DNA of 35,656 nucleotides from Clostridia bacterium (lineage in GTDB: Bacteria; Bacillota; Clostridia; Oscillospirales; Acutalibacteraceae): contig JAFZOL010000063.1 of assembly GCA_017550625.1 (NCBI GenBank), forward strand, positions 1 to 35,656, read 5' to 3'. The translations under genes were made by a program, and so were the position numbers. Positions within the stretch are counted from its first letter, which is position 1. Each line of letters opens with the position of its first letter. Below are positions 3,711 through 30,505 of the stretch, in pieces. Below the pieces are notes generated by a model, which ran no database searches, was not told the DNA's origin, and was given only the letters and a program-made list of their open reading frames with translations.

Positions 3711-7355
<3,645 letters not shown>

Positions 7356-12315: not shown

Positions 12316-14763
12316 ATGGAAAACAGACCTACCGGAAGAAAACGCATCGACGGCGGTCAGGGCAAGACCGTGGGCACCCAGGGCCCCGGCCTCGGCACCG
12401 GGCCCGTCGGCAAAAAGGACGGCTATCAGAGCAGACCCGGCCCCGGCGGCGCGCAGCGCGAGGGGTATAACGAGGGCGGCGCGGCAGGCGGCGGTGACCG
12501 CGGCATCGGCACGTCGCTGCTCAGCGGCCTTCTCGGGGGCGGCGGCAAGGGCAAGATCGTGATCATCCTGATTCTGATCGTGCTCGCCGTGATCATTCTG
12601 CCGAAGCTCTTCGGCGGCTCGGGCAGCGAAGGCGGGGCGAACCTGATCGACTCCGGCGCGGGCTTCACCGGCAACAACGGCTCTTACACGGGCTGGGCGG
12701 ACACGAGCGCCGCGAGCACCGCGAGCACCGGCACCGCCGTGACCGAGACCTCGAACGAGGCGCGCGCGAAGTATACCGTGCTCAAGGGCAACGGGCAGGA
12801 CACCGTGACGCTGATGGTGTATATGTGCGGCACCGACCTTGAGTCGAAGAACGGCATGGCCACCGCCGACCTCTTCGAGATGAAGAACGCCACGATCGCC
12901 GACAACGTGAACCTGATCGTGATGACCGGCGGGTGCAAGGCGTGGAAGACCAACGGCATCTCGAACACGCAGAACCAGATCTATAAGATCGGGAAGGACA
13001 GTCAGAGCGGACAGACGCAGATCATCCGCCTTGAGAACAACGCCGGCAACAAGGCGATGACCGACCCGAACAACCTGTCGGATTTCATCAAATACTGCAG
13101 AAGGGACTTCCCTGCCGACCGCTATATGCTGATCCTGTGGGACCACGGCGGCGGCACGATCTCGGGCTACGGCTACGATGAGAAGAACGTTTCGTCCGGC
13201 TCGATGACCCTGCCCAAGATCGCGAGCGCCCTGAAGGCCGGCGGCGTGCAGTTCGACTTCATCGGCTTCGACGCGTGCCTGATGGCCACGCTCGAGACCG
13301 CCCTGACCCTTGACCCCTATACCGACTATATGATCGCGAGCGAGGAGACCGAGCCCGGCGTGGGCTGGTATTACACCAACTGGCTCACGGACCTGAGCAA
13401 AAACACCTCGACCGACACCGTGACCCTCGGCACGAAGATCGTGGACGACTTCGTGACCGTGTGCGCGCAGAAATGCCGCGGCCAGAAGACCACGCTTTCG
13501 GTGATCGACGTTTCGGAGCTGTCGCAGACCGTGGGCGCGGACCTCTCGGCGTTTTCGGATTCGACCGCCGCGATGATCTCGGGCAGCGGCTACAAGACCG
13601 TGTCGAACGCCCGCGCGAACACGCGCGAGTTCGGCGTGTCGAGCAAGATCGACCAGGTGGACCTCGTGCACCTCGCCCTGAACATCAACACGGCCGAGAG
13701 CAAGGCGCTGGCCCAGACGCTGCGCCACGCGGTGAAATATAACCGCACGTCGTCCAACGTGACCGACGCCTACGGCATTTCGGCTTATTTCCCCTACCGC
13801 AACGCTTCGAAGGTGAACGCCGCGGTGTCGCAGCTCAACGCCCTTGACATGGACGACGAATATATCGCGTGCGTGCGCAAATTCGCGAGCCTTGAGGTCA
13901 CCGGCCAGGCGGTGCAGGGCGGCACGGCGTCGCCCTTCGGGTCGCTGTTCGGCTCGTCCTCGTCGTCGTCTTCGTCTTCTGCTTCGTCCGCGACCGACAT
14001 CATCGGCGCCCTGCTCGGCGGCGGCACGTCGTCGTCGGCATCCGGAGGCCTTGCGGACTTCGCGAGCATGCTCGGCGGCTTCGGCTTCTTTGACAAGAGC
14101 ATCGACCAGAAGGAGCTCACGACCCTCGTGGCCGGCAACACCCTGCCCGCGCTCGAATGGGAGAAAGAAGGCCGCAAGCAGGTGCTGCGCCTCACCGAAG
14201 CCGAATGGGGCCTCGTGAACAACCTGCTGCTCAACGTCTTCCTTGACGACGGAAAAGGCTATATCGATCTCGGCCTTGACAACATCTTCGACTTCACGGA
14301 CGACGGCGCGCTGATCGGCGAATACGACGGCAAGTGGGTGGCGATCGACAAGCAGCCCGTGGCGTATTATTTCGAGAGCTCGCTGACCGAGAACGGCAAG
14401 TTCGTGTCGCAGGGCTACGTGCCGGTGCTGCTCAACGGCGAGCGCGCCGAGCTGCTGATCGCCTTCGACGATGAAAGCGCCTCCATCTCGGGCGCGCGCT
14501 ACGTTTACAAGAACGGCGAGACCGAGACCGTGGCGAAGGCCGTGGGAACGCTGACCGAAGGCGACGTGATCCAGCCCATCTGCGACCGCTATTCTTACGA
14601 CGGAACGTATGAAGACAGCTATAAGCTCGGCGACCCGATCACCTATCACGAAGGCATCGAGGTCTCGGACGTGACGCTGACGGCGGAATCCGGCACGGCG
14701 GTCGCTTCGTACGTGCTGTTCGACATCTACAACATCGAGCACTGGACCCCCGCGATCGGCTGA
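12316..14763 (+). CDS. Membrane-anchored clostripain-family (C11) cysteine peptidase
   Basis: The 815-residue protein starts with a Gly/Pro-rich, basic segment of about 79 residues and one transmembrane helix (about 81-98), so the rest should face outside. The C11 domain starts near residue 160 (VTLMVYMCGTDLES) and holds the catalytic pair: His277 in WDHGGG and Cys321 in GFDACLMA. A Ser-rich low-complexity stretch (about 545-580) leads to a C-terminal module of about 200 residues that I do not recognise. Clostripain relatives cleave after Arg or Lys; the substrate here is unknown. The ATG has AGGAGG 10 nt upstream. No separate promoter is obvious, so it may be cotranscribed with tcdA. A strong terminator follows. 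Confidence 0.88.
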   Translation: MENRPTGRKRIDGGQGKTVGTQGPGLGTGPVGKKDGYQSRPGPGGAQREGYNEGGAAGGGDRGIGTSLLSGLLGGGGKGKIVIILILIVLAVIILPKLFGGSGSEGGANLIDSGAGFTGNNGSYTGWADTSAASTASTGTAVTETSNEARAKYTVLKGNGQDTVTLMVYMCGTDLESKNGMATADLFEMKNATIADNVNLIVMTGGCKAWKTNGISNTQNQIYKIGKDSQSGQTQIIRLENNAGNKAMTDPNNLSDFIKYCRRDFPADRYMLILWDHGGGTISGYGYDEKNVSSGSMTLPKIASALKAGGVQFDFIGFDACLMATLETALTLDPYTDYMIASEETEPGVGWYYTNWLTDLSKNTSTDTVTLGTKIVDDFVTVCAQKCRGQKTTLSVIDVSELSQTVGADLSAFSDSTAAMISGSGYKTVSNARANTREFGVSSKIDQVDLVHLALNINTAESKALAQTLRHAVKYNRTSSNVTDAYGISAYFPYRNASKVNAAVSQLNALDMDDEYIACVRKFASLEVTGQAVQGGTASPFGSLFGSSSSSSSSSASSATDIIGALLGGGTSSSASGGLADFASMLGGFGFFDKSIDQKELTTLVAGNTLPALEWEKEGRKQVLRLTEAEWGLVNNLLLNVFLDDGKGYIDLGLDNIFDFTDDGALIGEYDGKWVAIDKQPVAYYFESSLTENGKFVSQGYVPVLLNGERAELLIAFDDESASISGARYVYKNGETETVAKAVGTLTEGDVIQPICDRYSYDGTYEDSYKLGDPITYHEGIEVSDVTLTAESGTAVASYVLFDIYNIEHWTPAIG

Positions 14764-14789: not shown

Positions 14790-14817
14790 CCGGAAGCCGC
14801 GAGGCTTCCGGTTTTTT
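14790..14817 (+). terminator. Terminator after the C11 peptidase gene
   Basis: CCGGAAGCC, loop GCGA and GGCTTCCGG form a perfect 9-bp stem followed by TTTTTT. Confidence 0.9.
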
Positions 14818-14902: not shown

Positions 14903-14931
14903 TTGACGAAACGGGATAGGCGTGCTATAAT
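14903..14931 (+). promoter_or_regulatory. Promoter of the NAGPA-phosphatase gene
   Basis: TTGACG (14903-14908), 17 bp and TATAAT (14926-14931). The start would be near 14938, giving a leader of about 58 nt before the ATG at 14996. Confidence 0.75.
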
Positions 14932-14995: not shown

Positions 14996-17900
14996 ATGAA
15001 ACACAGTTTGCTCAAGAAAGCGCTGTCCGTCGTGCTTACGGCGGTCATGCTGCTGACGACCGTCTCCCTCATCGCGTTTGCCGACTACGGCTACGTGGCG
15101 CTGGAAGACACCTATCTCATTTCCGACACCGAGCGGCGCATCGCCCCCGGCGTGAAGGAAAACCGTATCGTGACCAACAACTCCACCGGCATGCAGCAGG
15201 AGATGATCTACGCCGTGTCCGTCGATCCGACCGCGCAGGTCGGCCTGATGGCCGGTTACGCCGACTATAACGGCTCGACCTGGAAGATGCAGACCGTGCG
15301 CGAGCAGGCCGCGAAGGCCTCGCAGGCGACCGGGCGCAACATCGTGGCCGCCGTGAACGCCGACATCTTCAACATGCAGACCGGCGAGCCCGCGGGCGTG
15401 CTGGTCATGAACGGCAACGTTTACAAGGCCGGCCTCGGCAGACCCTATTTCGGCGTGACGACCGACGGGCGGATCGTGATCGGCGAATCCCTGACGAGCG
15501 AAGTGCTTGCCACGCTCAAAGAGGCGATCTCGGGCTTCTATATGATCGTCAAGGACGGGCAGCGTACCGGCCCCGGCACGAATCCCGATTCGAACGTCGC
15601 CCCGAAGACCTGCGTCGGCCTCAAGGCGGACGGCACCGTGGTCATCGTGACCATTGACGGCCGGAACTTCCCGGTGTCCAATTCGCTGGGCGACTACGAT
15701 CTTGCCACCATCATGCTCGGCCTCGGATGCGTGGACGTGCTGAACCTCGACGGCGGCGGCTCTTCGACCTATCTCGCGAAATACGAGGGCAAGAATTATC
15801 TCGAGCTCGCGAACAACCCCTCCGACGCGGTCGAGCGCAAGGTCTCTTCTTCGCTCTTCGTCTATTCCACCGCGCGTCCCAGCGGCGAGTTCGACCACGC
15901 CGCCCTTGAGCCCAACAACAGGCTCTATACGCCCGGCTCGACCGTGACCTTCACGGCGACCGGCGTCGACTCCGCCGGCGGCTCGGCCACGCTGCCCGCG
16001 GGCGTGTTCGCCCTTGCGGCCGACAGCGCCGCCCTCGGCACGATCACGGACGACGGCGTGTTCACCGCGGGCGCTACCGAAGGCAGAGTGACCGTGAATT
16101 ATGTCTCCGGCGGCGAGGTCGTCGGCACGACCTTCATCGAGATCGCCACGCCCGACGAGCTGTATATCCCCAGCGACGAGTATTCGCTCGATTATGATGA
16201 AACGACGGACTTCGGCCTCGTGGCGAAGAACGCCGGCAGGGAGATCCTGCTCAAGGCCGGCGACATCGTATGGTCGGCAACGGCAGACGGCGCGGACGTG
16301 ACGGCCGGGATCGGCACGTTCGACGGCCTGACCCTGACGACGCGGAGCGAAGGCAGCATGGAGGCGGACGTGACCGCGGCCTCCGCGTACGACCAGTCCG
16401 TGACGGCCGCCACAAGGGTCGTCATCGGCGCAGAACCCGTGATGCTGTACGACTTCGAATACACCACCGATCAGGAGGAGGCCGCGGCCAGCGAAGGCAG
16501 GCTGCAGTGGATCCCCTCCTACGATCTTCCCGTTTACGACAACAAAAACAAGCCCGACGGCAAAACGCACACGCAGAAGGCCGCCGAATGGTATGAGGAG
16601 GGCTATCCGCTTTACGGCTGGCCGAACGCCTCGCTCGACGTGACCGCGATGCACGCCACGGTCGTGGACGCCGCCGACGGCGAGCCCGTCCGCTTCGGCG
16701 ACCACGCCCTGCGCATGGACGTCGACTTCTCGTCCTACAACAAGACCGGCAACTCCAACAACTACATCCGCGTGACGAGCCCCGATTACCGGTTCGAGGG
16801 CTCGCCCAAGAAGATGTCCGCGTGGGTCTACTGCCCCGAGGGCATGGCGAACTTCGCCCTGTATCTGAACCTCTGCAATAAGGACGGCAGCATCACCTAT
16901 GCGCCGGTCTCGACCATGAACGGCTCGGTGGCCGAAAACTGGGTCGGCTGGAAATACGTGGAGATCGACCTCACGACGCCCGTTACCGGCAGCACCAACA
17001 TCTCGCCCACCAGCTATCCCTACGGCTTCTATCAGGGCTGCGGCATCTTCTGGGTGTCCTTCCAGCCCGGCATCCCGAACGGCACGCGCTCCGCGAGCAC
17101 GGTGTATATCGACAACATCCAGCTCATTTACAGCTCGAATACGGACGATACCAAGAACCCCGAGATCACCTCGATCACCTACGATACGCTCGGCGCGCCC
17201 GAGGAATTCGTTAACTACGAGACCGTTCTCTCCGATCCCACGGTCACCATCCGCGCCTCGTTCAGAGACGCCGAAGACAAATACATGACCGGCATCGATG
17301 ACACCAAGGTGTCGATGAGCATCGACGGTGTGGACGTGACCGACAAGTGCTACGTGAACGCCGGCGACGGCCAGATCTATTTCTACGACGCCGAGCTCAA
17401 CAACGGCACGCACAGCGTGAGCGTGACGGTTTACGACAACTTCGGCAACAAGACCACCGAGACGAGATTCTTCACGGTGGACGCCGATTCCCCGGCCGCC
17501 GCCGAGCTTGTCGCCGAACAGGAAAGCCCCGTGCTCGGCCTGCCGTATACGCTTGACGTGAAGGCCGCCGATCCCGCAGATATCGTCGGCGCGGACATCG
17601 CGGTGCACACCTTCGCCGCGTTCACCTATTTCTATGACGACGTCCACGTCGAGCCCGCCGAGGGCTTCGCGCTCGCGGGCGAGCCCAAATACGACGCGAC
17701 GAACGCCATCATCAGCTTCAAGCTCGAACGGGACGGCAGGACGGTCCCCGCGGACGGCGTCATCGCGAGGATCGTGTATAACGTTCCGTCCATTGTCCGT
17801 TCCGACAGCATCGACGTATCCTTCCGTGTGGATAAGGGCGGCCTGACGTTCGCGACCACTCACGGAGAGAAGTATCTCGGCTCCTTCGGCGGAACGGTGA

Positions 17901-20326
17901 GCGCCTCGTGCATCGCCCCGCTGACCCTGACCTCCGACACCTTCCTTGTCGGCCGCGGCGGTTACTTCTACGTCACCGACCTCGCGGGCGAGCCCGTGGA
18001 GGGCGCGGTGCTGAAGAACGAGGACGGCACGCCCGTGGGCGAAGGCGCGACCGACGCCGAAGGCAAGTATTACACCGAGGCGTACAAGGACGCGATCACC
18101 GCGTTCAAGGTCCGCGCCGAAAAGGACGATCTCATCTCCTTCTATTACGAGGGCCAGAGCTTCACTGCCGGCGGCGACGAAACGGGTCTGCCGATGGACG
18201 TGACGCTCAACGGCGCGAAGAACGGCGGCACGATGCTCAACGTCTCGTGGTTCGCCTCCCCCACGGCCGCCGCGCAGAACGCGGTGGTGAAATACGCCGA
18301 GAAGGCCGCTTATGAAGCCGAAGGCGAAGAAGCGTTCACAACGTTTACGGGCGTGAGCAGGCTCGAAGAGCTCGATTCCACGAGCAACCTCGAAACCAAC
18401 TTCGCCCTGCTCTTCAACAAGGCTTGCGTCACCGGCCTCAAAGAGAACACCGAATACGTTTACGTCGTCGGCGACGGCGAAAAGATGAGCGAGCTCAGAA
18501 CGTTCAAAACCGGCAGGAACAACGCCGACACGAGCTTCTTCATCATCGGCGATATGCAGAGCGAGGATTCCGCCAACATCAACGCGATCCTCGACGCGCT
18601 GGCGGGCGACGGCACGGACTACCGTTTCGGCGTACAGACCGGCGACGCCGTTGACAACGGCGGCCAGTACCGCTGGTGGCAGAACGTGGGCGAGACCTTC
18701 TCGAACGGCTATCTCGGCTCGCTGCCCATCCTGCACGTGCTCGGCAATCACGAATACTACGGCGACTTCTCAGGTGAGAATTCGGCGGACTATTTCGGCA
18801 TGGAAACGCTCGCGGACGGCTCCGCCCCGCTTGCCTACAGCTCCGTGAACGGCAACGTGTACACCGCCGTGATCAACTACGCCGACGCTTCGGAAGAGAA
18901 TTACGTCAGGGCGCTCGAATGGGTCCGTGAGGACGCCGCCGCGTCGAACGCGCTGTGGAAGGTGCTCGCCATCCATCAGCCCGCCTACTACACCAATCCC
19001 GGCGGCAGCAACGACGTGGTCAACCGCCTCATCCCGGCGTTCGTTGACGAAAACGGCTTCTCGTTCGTCTTCTCCGGCCACGACCACTCTTACATGCGCA
19101 CCTATCCCGTTACGAACGGCGTGCGCGACGACGAGAACGGCGCGGTGTATTACATCTGCGGCTCCACCGGCGAAAAGTCGTATCAGGTCATCGAGAACCC
19201 CGACTTCCCCTACGCCATGGTGCGCGGCTCCGGCGCCGTTGACGGCGAATACGAGGCCGTGTATCTGACCGCCACCGCCACCGACACGGCCTTCACCGTG
19301 GACACGCACGAAGTTACCGTGACAGGCGACGGCACGTATAACGACGTGATCATCGACACCTATACGATGACCAGAGCCGTGACCTGCACCGAAAGCGGCA
19401 AGCACGATTTCGCCTATGCCGACGGCGCGCTGACCTGCAAGGTGTGCGGCTACACCAAGCCCGTCGACGGCTACACCGGCTTTGCCGAGGACGCCGCGAC
19501 CGGCGGCACGCGCTATTTCCTGAACGGCGTTTCGCAGACCGGCTGGCTCAACTATGAAGAGGACTGCTATTACTTCGACGCCGACGGCATCGCCGTGACC
19601 GGCAACCAGACGATCGACGGCATCAGCTATCGCTTCGACAACGAGGGCCGCCAGATCGGCGCGACCTTCGTGAAGGGCGCCGACGGCTATACCCGCGCCT
19701 ACCGCGGCGGCCACTATCTTGTGGGCTGGAACGAGATCGAGGGCAAGCTCTACTTCTTCAGCTCCAACGCCCAGCAGGAGGGCCGCATGTACACCGGCAC
19801 CGCCACGATCAGGATCTATACCGGCCAGCAGATCACCTTCAAGTTCGCGAGCGACGGCCACCTGCTTGAGGGCGCGTTCGTGACCGAAGAGAACGGCACC
19901 TGCTATTTCTGGGGCCAGGACAGACTGCTCGGCTGGCAGGAGATCAAGGGCACGACCTATTACTTCGATCCCGCGACGGGCTACATGGCAACGGGCATGA
20001 CCACGATCGACGGCACGGCGTATATGTTCTCCGATAAGGGCGCCTTCCTGCACGAGGGCGACCACGAGTTCACGTTCGACCACCATCAGGACGCCTCGTG
20101 CGTGGACGAGGAGCAGAACGTTTATAAGTGCACCAAGTGCGGCGAGACCGCCGTGGAGGTGCTCGGCCCCGCCACGGGCCACGTGGATGCCGACGGCGAC
20201 GATCTGTGCGACGTCTGCGGCAAATACACGAAGACAAACAACAACCTCTGGGAGATCATCATGCGGTTCTTCATCCGGATCCGCAACTGGTTCCGCACGA
20301 TCTTCTCGAGGCTCAGCATCCGCTGA
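14996..20326 (+). CDS. Secreted NAGPA phosphodiester glycosidase / metallophosphoesterase fusion with cell-wall-binding repeats
   Basis: This 1776-residue protein has a signal peptide cut after about Ala29 (AFA/DYG). Residues ~50-295 are a NAGPA (DUF2233) domain, with Asn121 in VNADIF and the signature LDGGGSST (252-258); this family hydrolyses sugar-1-phosphodiesters. Then come Ig-like sequence (~300-475), a jelly-roll-like, CBM-type region (~483-710), another Ig-like domain (~722-830), a possible cohesin-like fold (~831-972) and an FN3-like stretch (~1080-1172). Residues ~1178-1430 are a purple-acid-phosphatase-like domain with Asp1186, GDAVD (1216-1220), GNHE (1250-1253), His1327 and GHDH (1361-1364). 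Cell-wall-binding-type aromatic/Gly repeats follow (~1495-1690), flanked by CxxC motifs, then a basic-aromatic tail. No LPXTG motif is present. NAGPA and phosphatase calls are firm; the Ig, jelly-roll and cohesin calls are tentative. Confidence 0.85.
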   Translation: MKHSLLKKALSVVLTAVMLLTTVSLIAFADYGYVALEDTYLISDTERRIAPGVKENRIVTNNSTGMQQEMIYAVSVDPTAQVGLMAGYADYNGSTWKMQTVREQAAKASQATGRNIVAAVNADIFNMQTGEPAGVLVMNGNVYKAGLGRPYFGVTTDGRIVIGESLTSEVLATLKEAISGFYMIVKDGQRTGPGTNPDSNVAPKTCVGLKADGTVVIVTIDGRNFPVSNSLGDYDLATIMLGLGCVDVLNLDGGGSSTYLAKYEGKNYLELANNPSDAVERKVSSSLFVYSTARPSGEFDHAALEPNNRLYTPGSTVTFTATGVDSAGGSATLPAGVFALAADSAALGTITDDGVFTAGATEGRVTVNYVSGGEVVGTTFIEIATPDELYIPSDEYSLDYDETTDFGLVAKNAGREILLKAGDIVWSATADGADVTAGIGTFDGLTLTTRSEGSMEADVTAASAYDQSVTAATRVVIGAEPVMLYDFEYTTDQEEAAASEGRLQWIPSYDLPVYDNKNKPDGKTHTQKAAEWYEEGYPLYGWPNASLDVTAMHATVVDAADGEPVRFGDHALRMDVDFSSYNKTGNSNNYIRVTSPDYRFEGSPKKMSAWVYCPEGMANFALYLNLCNKDGSITYAPVSTMNGSVAENWVGWKYVEIDLTTPVTGSTNISPTSYPYGFYQGCGIFWVSFQPGIPNGTRSASTVYIDNIQLIYSSNTDDTKNPEITSITYDTLGAPEEFVNYETVLSDPTVTIRASFRDAEDKYMTGIDDTKVSMSIDGVDVTDKCYVNAGDGQIYFYDAELNNGTHSVSVTVYDNFGNKTTETRFFTVDADSPAAAELVAEQESPVLGLPYTLDVKAADPADIVGADIAVHTFAAFTYFYDDVHVEPAEGFALAGEPKYDATNAIISFKLERDGRTVPADGVIARIVYNVPSIVRSDSIDVSFRVDKGGLTFATTHGEKYLGSFGGTVSASCIAPLTLTSDTFLVGRGGYFYVTDLAGEPVEGAVLKNEDGTPVGEGATDAEGKYYTEAYKDAITAFKVRAEKDDLISFYYEGQSFTAGGDETGLPMDVTLNGAKNGGTMLNVSWFASPTAAAQNAVVKYAEKAAYEAEGEEAFTTFTGVSRLEELDSTSNLETNFALLFNKACVTGLKENTEYVYVVGDGEKMSELRTFKTGRNNADTSFFIIGDMQSEDSANINAILDALAGDGTDYRFGVQTGDAVDNGGQYRWWQNVGETFSNGYLGSLPILHVLGNHEYYGDFSGENSADYFGMETLADGSAPLAYSSVNGNVYTAVINYADASEENYVRALEWVREDAAASNALWKVLAIHQPAYYTNPGGSNDVVNRLIPAFVDENGFSFVFSGHDHSYMRTYPVTNGVRDDENGAVYYICGSTGEKSYQVIENPDFPYAMVRGSGAVDGEYEAVYLTATATDTAFTVDTHEVTVTGDGTYNDVIIDTYTMTRAVTCTESGKHDFAYADGALTCKVCGYTKPVDGYTGFAEDAATGGTRYFLNGVSQTGWLNYEEDCYYFDADGIAVTGNQTIDGISYRFDNEGRQIGATFVKGADGYTRAYRGGHYLVGWNEIEGKLYFFSSNAQQEGRMYTGTATIRIYTGQQITFKFASDGHLLEGAFVTEENGTCYFWGQDRLLGWQEIKGTTYYFDPATGYMATGMTTIDGTAYMFSDKGAFLHEGDHEFTFDHHQDASCVDEEQNVYKCTKCGETAVEVLGPATGHVDADGDDLCDVCGKYTKTNNNLWEIIMRFFIRIRNWFRTIFSRLSIR

Positions 20327-20343: not shown

Positions 20344-20376
20344 GGGGGCCGGTTGAAAAACCGGCTCCCCTTCTTT
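20344..20376 (+). terminator. Terminator after the NAGPA-phosphatase gene
   Basis: GGGG-GCCGGTT, a GAAA loop, AACCGGC, one bulged T and CCCC are followed by TTCTTT. Confidence 0.8.
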
Positions 20377-28978: not shown

Positions 28979-30505
28979 ATGAAAAGAACCGTCGCCTTAT
29001 TGCTCGCCGCCGTATTGACGCTTATATGCTGTTCGTCCGCCCTCGCGGCGGCGCCGGACAGATATACGATCACGAACCCCTACGCGGACGTGGACTGGGA
29101 GAGCGCGGGACAATATAAGACCGCCCTGCATACCCACACCAACGCCTCCGACGGCAGCGCGACGCTGAGGCAAAGCATCGAGCGGCACGTGGAGACCGGC
29201 TTCGATATCGTGGCCGTAACCGACCACGGCGTGGTGGACCAGGGCTGGGACGACGGCGCGAAGCAGAACATGATCAAGACCCTGCTCGGGGTGCTGGGCA
29301 GGAGCGAGGGCGACCTCGAATACCTCGGCGACGAGGGCACGTTCGCGGACGGCACGAATTACCGCCTCACGAAGACCCTGAGCGGCGACGACTATTTATA
29401 CGCGGGCGAACGCACGATCCTCCGGCTCCCCTACGGCGTGGAGAACAACGCGGTGTCGGTGAACGCCCACGTCAATTCGTGGTTCGTAAACAGTACCGAC
29501 AACTCCGTGACCACCTACGAGGACGCGGTGCGCCGCATCGAGCGTGAGGGCGGGGTGTCGGTGATCAACCACCCCGGCGAATACACGAAGGCGCGCTATG
29601 AGCTCACAAGCGCCGACGCCTATGACGAGGAGAACGCCGCTTACGCCTATTACATCAATAAATATGCTTATCTGCTGGATAAATATCCGTCGTGCATCGG
29701 GATCGATATTAACTCGAAGGGCGACGACCGCACCCGCTTCGAGCGCGTGCTGTGGGATATTCTGCTGACGCGCTTTTCGGCCAACGGCAGAAACGTGTTC
29801 GCGATCGCGAGCTCCGACGCCCACCAGCTCAACAAGATCGACACGGGCTTTTCGCTGCTGCTGACACCCGCCCTTTCGTCCGCCGCGGCGCGCCGCGCCC
29901 TTGAAAAAGGCGAGTTCTTCGCCGCCTCGCACTGCATCGGCAACCCCGAGGAGCTGGAGGAATATTCCGCCGCGCTGAGGGCTTTTTACGGCGAGGGGAA
30001 CCGAACCCTCATCCGCGTGGACGCAGCGCTCGCCGCGATGCGGGAGCGCATCGACGGGATCGAAGCGGGCAGATACGACCGCGACGACTCGATCGGCGCG
30101 GAGTATACGGTGCTGGACGGAAACGGCTTCACGACAGTGGATTCTTTCCCGTCCGTGAAGGCGATCAGGGTGGACGACAATGAGAACACGATCGGGATCG
30201 AGACCGGGGACGCGCTCATTGTGCGCTTCGTTTCGAACGGCAGAACGGTGGCCGTGCTGCCCGCGGACGACGCCGTGCTCGACCTCGACGACTACGGCGA
30301 TCTCATCGGCGATTACGTGCGCGCCGAGGTGTTCGGCGACGGCGGCATCCTGTATACACAGGCGTTTTTGCTCAACGCCGAAGCGCACGCCGGCAGCGCG
30401 GACGTGGTGAAAGGCGTGCGGGAGCTGGGATTTCTGGACTTTCTGCTGGCCGAAATCAATCGCTGGATGAAGGTCATCGCGCGGTTTTTCCGCTCGGTGA
30501 CGTGA
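28979..30505 (+). CDS. Secreted PHP-domain metal-dependent phosphoesterase
   Basis: PHP proteins are metal-dependent phosphoesterases; some hydrolyse nucleotides or sugar phosphates. The 508-residue product has a signal peptide cut near residue 23-25 (SALA/AAP). The PHP ligands are complete: His51-x-His53 in LHTHTNASDG, Asp82-His83 in VTDHG, His198 in NHPGEY and Asp280-x-His282 in SSDAH. About 185 residues after the PHP core (320-508) look like a beta-rich accessory region and end in an aromatic/basic tail (EINRWMKVIARFFRSVT) resembling that of the NAGPA-phosphatase protein. No LPXTG anchor is present. The ATG has AAAGGAG upstream. The substrate is unknown and is probably an extracellular phosphate ester. 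Confidence 0.87.
   Translation: MKRTVALLLAAVLTLICCSSALAAAPDRYTITNPYADVDWESAGQYKTALHTHTNASDGSATLRQSIERHVETGFDIVAVTDHGVVDQGWDDGAKQNMIKTLLGVLGRSEGDLEYLGDEGTFADGTNYRLTKTLSGDDYLYAGERTILRLPYGVENNAVSVNAHVNSWFVNSTDNSVTTYEDAVRRIEREGGVSVINHPGEYTKARYELTSADAYDEENAAYAYYINKYAYLLDKYPSCIGIDINSKGDDRTRFERVLWDILLTRFSANGRNVFAIASSDAHQLNKIDTGFSLLLTPALSSAAARRALEKGEFFAASHCIGNPEELEEYSAALRAFYGEGNRTLIRVDAALAAMRERIDGIEAGRYDRDDSIGAEYTVLDGNGFTTVDSFPSVKAIRVDDNENTIGIETGDALIVRFVSNGRTVAVLPADDAVLDLDDYGDLIGDYVRAEVFGDGGILYTQAFLLNAEAHAGSADVVKGVRELGFLDFLLAEINRWMKVIARFFRSVT

Follow-up and report, generated by a model that had tools for sequence, protein, structure and literature searches.

A conserved pairing of NAGPA and calcineurin-like phosphoesterase domains on a secreted-looking, repeat-bearing bacterial protein

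The window analysed here, a stretch of 35,656 nucleotides taken at its full length, carries on its forward strand a gene for a protein of 1776 amino acids in which two predicted catalytic domains are combined with several putative binding modules. The features of the gene and its flanks are given below; MID, JR, Ig, COH and linker are region names coined in this analysis, and a fused gene is one that encodes both catalytic domains.

14903 to 14931, forward strand: promoter-like site TTGACG-17-TATAAT with TG ahead of the -10, from a consensus scan (11 of 12 matches), about 65 bp upstream of the ATG
14996 to 20326, forward strand: whole gene, 1776 amino acids, translation without internal stop
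14996 to 15082, forward strand: putative signal peptide, residues 1-29, cut after AFA, judged by eye
15107 to 15880, forward strand: NAGPA/DUF2233 phosphodiester glycosidase domain, residues 38-295 (Pfam core 115-290), from Pfam and alignment
15881 to 16459, forward strand: conserved MID region, residues 296-488, following NAGPA in 22 of 23 fused genes when searched with an HMM from 13 of those
16469 to 17149, forward strand: possible carbohydrate-binding beta-sandwich (JR), residues 492-718, identity weak
17159 to 17485, forward strand: bacterial Ig-like domain, residues 722-830, Big_13 at 26.1 bits, slightly below the cutoff of 27
17501 to 17950, forward strand: possible cohesin-like domain (COH), residues 836-985, from other loci, the window copy having no match
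17963 to 18169, forward strand: conserved linker region, residues 990-1058, in 21 of 23 fused genes
18197 to 18511, forward strand: Pur_ac_phosph_N FN3-like domain, residues 1068-1172, Pfam, 34.4 bits against a cutoff of 30
18536 to 19093, forward strand: calcineurin-like metallophosphoesterase (PF00149), residues 1181-1366, Metallophos E 3.1e-13, 51 bits against a cutoff of 21.5
19478 to 20065, forward strand: choline/glucan-binding-type repeats, residues 1495-1690, Choline_bind_3, E 1.5e-14
20066 to 20323, forward strand: C-terminal tail, residues 1691-1776, with paired CxxC motifs and then a basic amphipathic stretch, by eye
20344 to 20369, forward strand: terminator-like hairpin of 11 pairs with a modest T tail, from a consensus scan, beginning 18 bp after the stop codon

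The 1776-residue frame at 14996-20326 is coding. GC at its codon positions 1, 2 and 3 is 0.56, 0.44 and 0.88, the corresponding values for EF-G, a clear gene in the window, being 0.59, 0.38 and 0.86, and a 1271-residue frame that overlaps it on the minus strand has the mirrored pattern. The host genome assembly comprises 2.88 Mb in 80 contigs. Given the promoter-like site upstream and the terminator-like hairpin after the stop codon, the gene is probably transcribed alone; the scanned 6.6 kb contains four promoter-like sites where shuffles lead one to expect 1.7, and 11 terminator-like sites where 5.7 are expected. As the gene looks monocistronic its neighbours offer no clue to the substrate, and no operon clue was found among the scanned neighbours in the window, which include clostripain, TelA, VWA, hexapeptide transferase, M28 and M24 genes, or among the ten flanking ORFs scanned at loci L003 and L004. 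Eight of these ten match other families, one of the eight being a separate metallophosphoesterase at L004, and two match none. The N-terminal stretch (residues 1-29) looks by eye like a signal peptide, in agreement with an earlier description of the polypeptide, made from the DNA alone and here called the sequence-only reading, as a secreted one.

The first catalytic domain is a strong match to the NAGPA family (PF09992) over residues 115-290, with an E value of 3.6e-33 and 115.6 bits against a cutoff of 25, rising to 121 bits in the genome search. The signature from which the sequence-only reading had recognised the domain, N121 and D252-GGGSS-257, is found at those positions, and in an alignment N121, T205, G208, D221-G222, D252-GGGS-256 and T258 are common to solved uncovering-enzyme and DUF2233 chains. 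Among the fused genes described below, G208, D221, D252-GGG, S256 and T258 are kept in 23 of 23, N121 in 22 (the sole exception, L113, has D at this position) and T205 in 20. The chemistry attributed to mammalian NAGPA, removal of GlcNAc from a GlcNAc-phosphate-6-mannose diester to leave a phosphomonoester, is sound, the reaction of the mammalian uncovering enzyme being given in the excerpted text of PMC12024695. That the bacterial domain shares the specificity for GlcNAc is assumed by analogy.

The second catalytic domain has all five metal-binding motifs of a calcineurin-like metallophosphoesterase (GDMQ, GDAVD, GNHE, H1327 and GHDH), and the ligand set proposed for it, D1186, G1216-DAVD-1220, G1250-NHE, H1327 and G1361-HDH-1364, proved correct residue by residue. 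D1186, Q1188, D1217, N1251, H1252, H1327 and H1364 are present in all 23 fused genes and H1362 in 22, L105 alone having D at that position. The alignment, which could have revealed loss of active-site residues in either domain, gave no refutation of the two-enzyme assignment, as the motif residues are nearly invariant across the 23 genes.

The phosphoesterase had also been called purple-acid-phosphatase-like, and here the assignment does not stand. The family profile reaches the purple acid phosphatase 6gja at E 3e-19, and the FN3-like N-terminal domain of that group is present. In purple acid phosphatases the tyrosine of the GDxxY motif is an Fe(III) ligand. At position 1220, which we take to be the site of this iron-binding tyrosine, the fused genes have D (20 of 23, including D1220 of the window), E (two) or H (one), and GDxG is replaced by GDxQ in all 23. 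The profile alignment to 6gja has a one-residue gap at the tyrosine position, and the window segment GDAVDNGG supplies no tyrosine in either placement. Without the tyrosine ligand, and with GDxQ for GDxG, a purple iron site is not expected; identity as a purple acid phosphatase was rejected because the iron-binding tyrosine, a defining feature, is missing. The domain is better described as a metallophosphoesterase preceded by an N-domain of the purple-acid-phosphatase type.

Between and beyond the two enzymes lie regions of varied assignment. A jelly-roll label given previously to residues ~490-720 was not confirmed, since the JR region of the window copy has no Pfam match up to E 1 and the AF2 model is unusable; one of the 13 sequences scanned, other than the window copy, matches Lyase_N in this region with E 7.3e-4. 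With the window sequence, L003 and L004 as input, AF2 reached a mean pLDDT of 35.7 for residues 30-722 and 45.5 for residues 722-1460, neither model being usable. Used in a fold search, the second model gave 41 matches at E <=0.001, most of them to Ig-type or other beta proteins and with query TM-scores near 0.1, and the search was given no weight. Purple acid phosphatases are among the 41 matches of this poor model, and these too were given no weight.

A cohesin was considered for the COH region and rejected for the window copy, where residues 831-990 have no Pfam match to Cohesin up to E 1. Weak Cohesin matches occur in four of the 13 sequences (best E 8.9e-4); the best solved-structure matches of the region are cohesins, but with E values of 0.2 and 0.43, and an hhalign comparison with four cohesin-like domains of the host genome was negative. 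The cohesin-like region is kept as a lead because locus L113 scores above the cutoff (30.2 bits against 24.1), with its match lying between Ig and linker in a place comparable to that of COH in the window. The wall-binding repeats of the sequence-only reading are indeed present in the window copy, with the Choline_bind_3 match given above; they are of the glucan/choline-binding kind, which makes wall binding by this copy likely. Such repeats are found likewise in clostridial toxins and glucosyltransferases, and matches of the window protein to toxin chains fall only in the repeats and in the stretch immediately preceding them.

A scan of named genomes gave two relatives, the Ruminococcaceae MAGs RUG11826 and RUG13829, whose best segments are 65% and 63% identical. 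Overlapping samples of 250 genomes of the family, 391 of the class and 398 of the phylum were searched with either the window protein or the phosphatase profile as query, and the 124 loci examined, which were picked by score and not at random, gave 28 ORFs with both domains. After removal of five duplicate loci there are at least 23 distinct genes with both domains in at least 21 genomes or records, namely that of the window, RUG11826, RUG13829 and 18 others. The occurrence of DUF2233 and Metallophos on one protein is thereby borne out, the matches of the window protein lying far beyond chance and the pair recurring, with its order unchanged, in another 22 genes. In a viral collection the searches found a few distant relatives (one locus in one search and five in another), with no fusion in the stretches examined.

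In 22 of the 23 fused genes, which come from several families, the domains run NAGPA-MID-JR-Ig-phosphatase. Without any change of order, MID, JR and Ig were recognised in 22 genes (all except L047), the linker in 21 genes, COH in 15 genes and wall-type repeats in 11. These counts are partly circular, since 13 of the same 23 genes served to build the region HMMs and the 11 positives to build the repeat HMM. Two of the 12 fused genes without recognised repeats, L008 and L050, reach a contig edge. With the repeats in just 11 of 23 genes, wall binding is not family-wide. By Pfam the C-terminal parts vary as well, with wall repeats and a dockerin in L012 and L051, a dockerin without a choline-binding match in L011, FIVAR and Big_2 in L052, and a CotH kinase domain in L105.

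The two catalytic domains have diverged in step. Their pairwise distances across the fused genes are correlated with a Spearman coefficient of 0.874, none of 999 permutations being as high in a Mantel test that ignores species relatedness, which shows joint inheritance. A single origin of the fusion was considered and is unsupported, as the fused proteins do not form one clade in either of our trees, which suggests that the fusion has been gained or lost repeatedly. With 66 rows in the NAGPA tree and 52 in the phosphatase tree, 23 of them fused in each, the fused label has to change seven times on the former, at least five of these changes being forced by starred branches, and five times on the latter, at least three being forced; both trees were made by a quick method and have long branches and no bootstrap. 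Left out of them were 22 NAGPA and five phosphatase rows that are duplicates or shorter copies of other loci, one NAGPA and three phosphatase rows on grounds of length, and loci L080-L084, whose phosphatase side is already represented by longer loci.

Individual loci show the halves apart. L056 encodes a NAGPA-MID-JR protein without the phosphatase and groups with the fused L110, and L111 keeps the part from JR through the phosphatase, with GNH reading GNN and no NAGPA domain found in the 1.3 kb upstream. In genome G242 two fused paralogues are 82% identical in NAGPA and 43% identical in the phosphatase, a contrast that we take as a sign of recombination between copies, so that the halves may be able to recombine.

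Taken together, the sequence-only reading is supported in its two catalytic domains, both intact-looking, on a single chain that looks secreted and bears repeats, and their pairing is conserved; its purple-acid-phosphatase label does not hold, yeast phosphomannan receives no significant support, and coupling is not obligatory. The reading that we prefer, and to which we would give about an even chance, makes the window protein a phosphoglycan hydrolase of two enzymes, secreted and displayed at the surface. The protein would be exported and held at the Gram-positive surface by its repeats. There the NAGPA domain would hydrolyse a HexNAc-alpha-1-phosphodiester, giving a free sugar and a phosphomonoester on the other partner, and the two-metal calcineurin-like domain would then take off that phosphate or hydrolyse a neighbouring phosphoester of the same polymer. 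Binding the polymer and keeping both sites over it would fall to the intervening Ig-like and beta-sandwich modules. Coupling of the two steps is plausible on the domain evidence; since relatives carry NAGPA scaffolds without the phosphatase the steps are separable, and the coupling is not an obligatory one.

As substrate, a phosphoglycan of the bacterial wall or capsule is the most likely candidate, ahead of yeast mannan. For yeast phosphomannan, one of the substrates suggested earlier, co-occurrence with GH92 alpha-mannosidase gives no significant support. GH92 is present in the host genome and in four of ten other fused genomes, and in 12 of 52 genomes without the fusion, so that five of 11 fused genomes compare with 12 of 52 unfused ones (Fisher p 0.15); the 62 genomes other than the host had been chosen by hand, and a genome counted as "unfused" when the search used found no fusion in it. 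The Stealth capsule phosphotransferase has no match in the host genome nor in any control genome and is therefore uninformative.

It is possible, though we think it rather unlikely, that the two domains share a surface scaffold without any sequential link, NAGPA trimming sugar phosphodiesters while the calcineurin-like domain acts as a separate phosphodiesterase of the ShfP or PhoD type or as a general phosphatase for phosphate scavenging, the fusion being a product of frequent shuffling of secreted modules. In the tree sets, which were picked by score, 43 of 66 NAGPA rows are without the phosphatase and 29 of 52 phosphatase rows without NAGPA. Related NAGPA scaffolds are partnered with LRR_5 or choline-binding repeats, L105 adds its CotH kinase domain, and the attachment modules outside the core vary among members, all of which suits independent modules; but the constant order of the core in 22 of 23 genes from several families, together with two active sites that are both kept and domains that diverge in step, argues for a link. 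An improbable alternative would make the protein an eraser of murein linkage units, from its own wall or from that of neighbours, in which NAGPA cuts the GlcNAc-alpha1-P-6-MurNAc bond that joins wall teichoic acid or other glycopolymers to peptidoglycan, after which the residual MurNAc-6-phosphate is cleared by the phosphatase, so that phosphate is recycled and plain peptidoglycan restored. The conventional unit is described in the excerpted text of PMC7831098 as beta-ManNAc-(1->4)-alpha-GlcNAc-(1->P, usually on C6 of MurNAc, which is chemically close to the mammalian substrate GlcNAc-P-6-Man, and the window protein has wall-type repeats. The GlcNAc of the linkage unit is, however, not terminal, whereas the mammalian enzyme takes off a terminal GlcNAc, and the wall-type repeats occur in just 11 of the 23 fused genes. 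Two LytR-CpsA-Psr (LCP) domains score above cutoff in the host genome, but LCP is also found in seven of 14 control genomes, and as such proteins are widespread their presence is weak evidence.

Two further explanations seem to us less probable still. In one, very unlikely in our view, the protein scavenges nucleotide sugars and nucleotides, with NAGPA splitting UDP-GlcNAc and the calcineurin-like domain dephosphorylating the nucleotide. UDP-GlcNAc is a second substrate of the mammalian uncovering enzyme according to the text consulted in PMC12024695, and some enzymes of the calcineurin-like superfamily have nucleotides as substrates (PMC11488536). Wall-type repeats and multiple beta-sandwich modules nevertheless suit a polymer better, and the 5'-nucleotidase C-terminal domain is not among the 11 Pfam families listed for the protein up to E 1. 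The other, which we rank last, makes the protein an interbacterial weapon akin to the TelC-NAGPA two-enzyme proteins of spore-forming Bacillota, large NAGPA-based Bacillota proteins being read as possible conflict systems in the excerpt of PMC12419801. Against it, neither TelC nor NlpC/P60 is among the same 11 families (Pfam may have no TelC model), the resemblance to toxin chains goes no further than the repeats and the residues immediately ahead of them, and the gene seems solitary between its promoter-like and terminator-like sites.

Phosphodiester-linked sugars hold many teichoic acids and capsules together and bond wall glycopolymers to peptidoglycan. We know of no bacterial NAGPA-phosphatase fusion with a determined substrate, and no experiment on such a fusion was recognised in the literature searched, mostly by title and the opening of the abstract. 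A conserved two-domain enzyme with intact-looking sites thus offers a concrete protein for testing. Removal of the linkage unit, if true, would explain how glycopolymers are stripped from bacterial walls and phosphate recovered; if it is false, the substrate of the family would still tell which surface polymer these Bacillota process.

Comparison with known systems places each half of the protein, and then the whole. The NAGPA half shares most of the domain, with its N, T, D-G, DGGGS and T residues, with the uncovering enzyme (6pku, 6pkg) and the DUF2233 chain 3ohg; it differs from the uncovering enzyme in having NAD for NGG, and from both in being one module of a 1776-residue chain. Purple acid phosphatases (6git, 6gja, 2qfp, TRAP5) share with the other half the FN3-like N-terminal domain and the metallophosphoesterase core, but have the tyrosine ligand of GDxxY where the fused genes have GDxxD, GDxxE or GDxxH, and GDxG where these have GDxQ. 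The TelC-NAGPA two-enzyme proteins of Bacillota (PMC12419801, excerpt) likewise set NAGPA and a second catalytic domain amid Ig-like and wall-binding modules, their second enzyme being TelC, a lipocone domain, whereas that of the window protein is a calcineurin-like phosphoesterase.

The closest likeness is to the radiation to which ShfP belongs. In the excerpted text of PMC11488536 (2024) a very large radiation of calcineurin-like phosphoesterases, either secreted or anchored in the membrane, is described, with FN3 domains that map to Pur_ac_phosph_N, Ig domains and cell-wall-binding modules, and its members may be fused to the phosphodiester glycosidase NAGPA, so that NAGPA-phosphatase fusions of this type had been reported before. 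ShfP carries an LTD together with seven Ig domains, with no NAGPA described for it in that excerpt. The authors read the radiation as acting on cell-surface phosphopolymers, with PhoD, which cleaves teichoic acid, as the precedent. Likened by description, and with secretion taken from the signal peptide seen by eye, the window protein has the domain content of the NAGPA fusions of this radiation: a secreted chain with a Pur_ac_phosph_N-type FN3 domain, Ig-like and wall-binding modules, and the NAGPA domain that some members carry.

The neighbours of the gene encoding the fused NAGPA-phosphatase protein in the window include two genes on the same strand, and the protein itself ends in a tail:

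12316-14763, forward strand: clostripain-family (C11) peptidase gene, directly upstream of the fusion gene
20066-20323: C-terminal tail, with paired CxxC motifs followed by a basic amphipathic end
28979-30505, forward strand: secreted-looking protein with a PHP domain (26.7 bits against a cutoff of 26.4)

Downstream of the peptidase gene, the sequence shows a hairpin with a T run (about 14790-14817); a terminator-type scan places the hairpin on the minus strand. The PHP-domain gene lies about 8.7 kb downstream of the fusion gene and could encode a further extracellular phosphoesterase. A few further proteins encoded in the same genome contain stretches related to the tail, most of the matches being weak.

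Two relatives deserve mention. The first is a larger fusion:

Relative locus L105, 1305-9302, reverse strand: NAGPA, phosphatase and CotH kinase on a single chain of 2666 aa

Its phosphatase carries GDDH in place of the metal-ligand motif GHDH. In the copy from the Ruminococcaceae genome RUG13829, 43 alignment columns are missing within NAGPA at about position 6457 of locus L004 with the frame kept, reflecting either a true deletion or an assembly fault.

Whole-genome profile searches of the window's own genome gave 55 Dockerin_1 matches, 54 of them over the cutoff, and only three cohesin matches over the cutoff; the genome is thus rich in dockerins with few recognised cohesins. Four of the dockerin matches are mirror copies on contig C59, where phosphatase matches, four dockerin pairs and one tail pair are arranged as mirror images with a constant coordinate sum of 144221. 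This contig therefore appears to be an inverted duplicate that probably arose as an artefact of assembly. On another contig, C40, a single 478-aa ORF contains both dockerin and cohesin. Among the fused NAGPA-phosphatase relatives, those at loci L012, L051 and L011 end in a C-terminal dockerin, and that at L113 has a clear cohesin (residues 947-1055) between NAGPA and phosphatase. These domains suggest a possible tie between the fused proteins and cohesin-dockerin assemblies.
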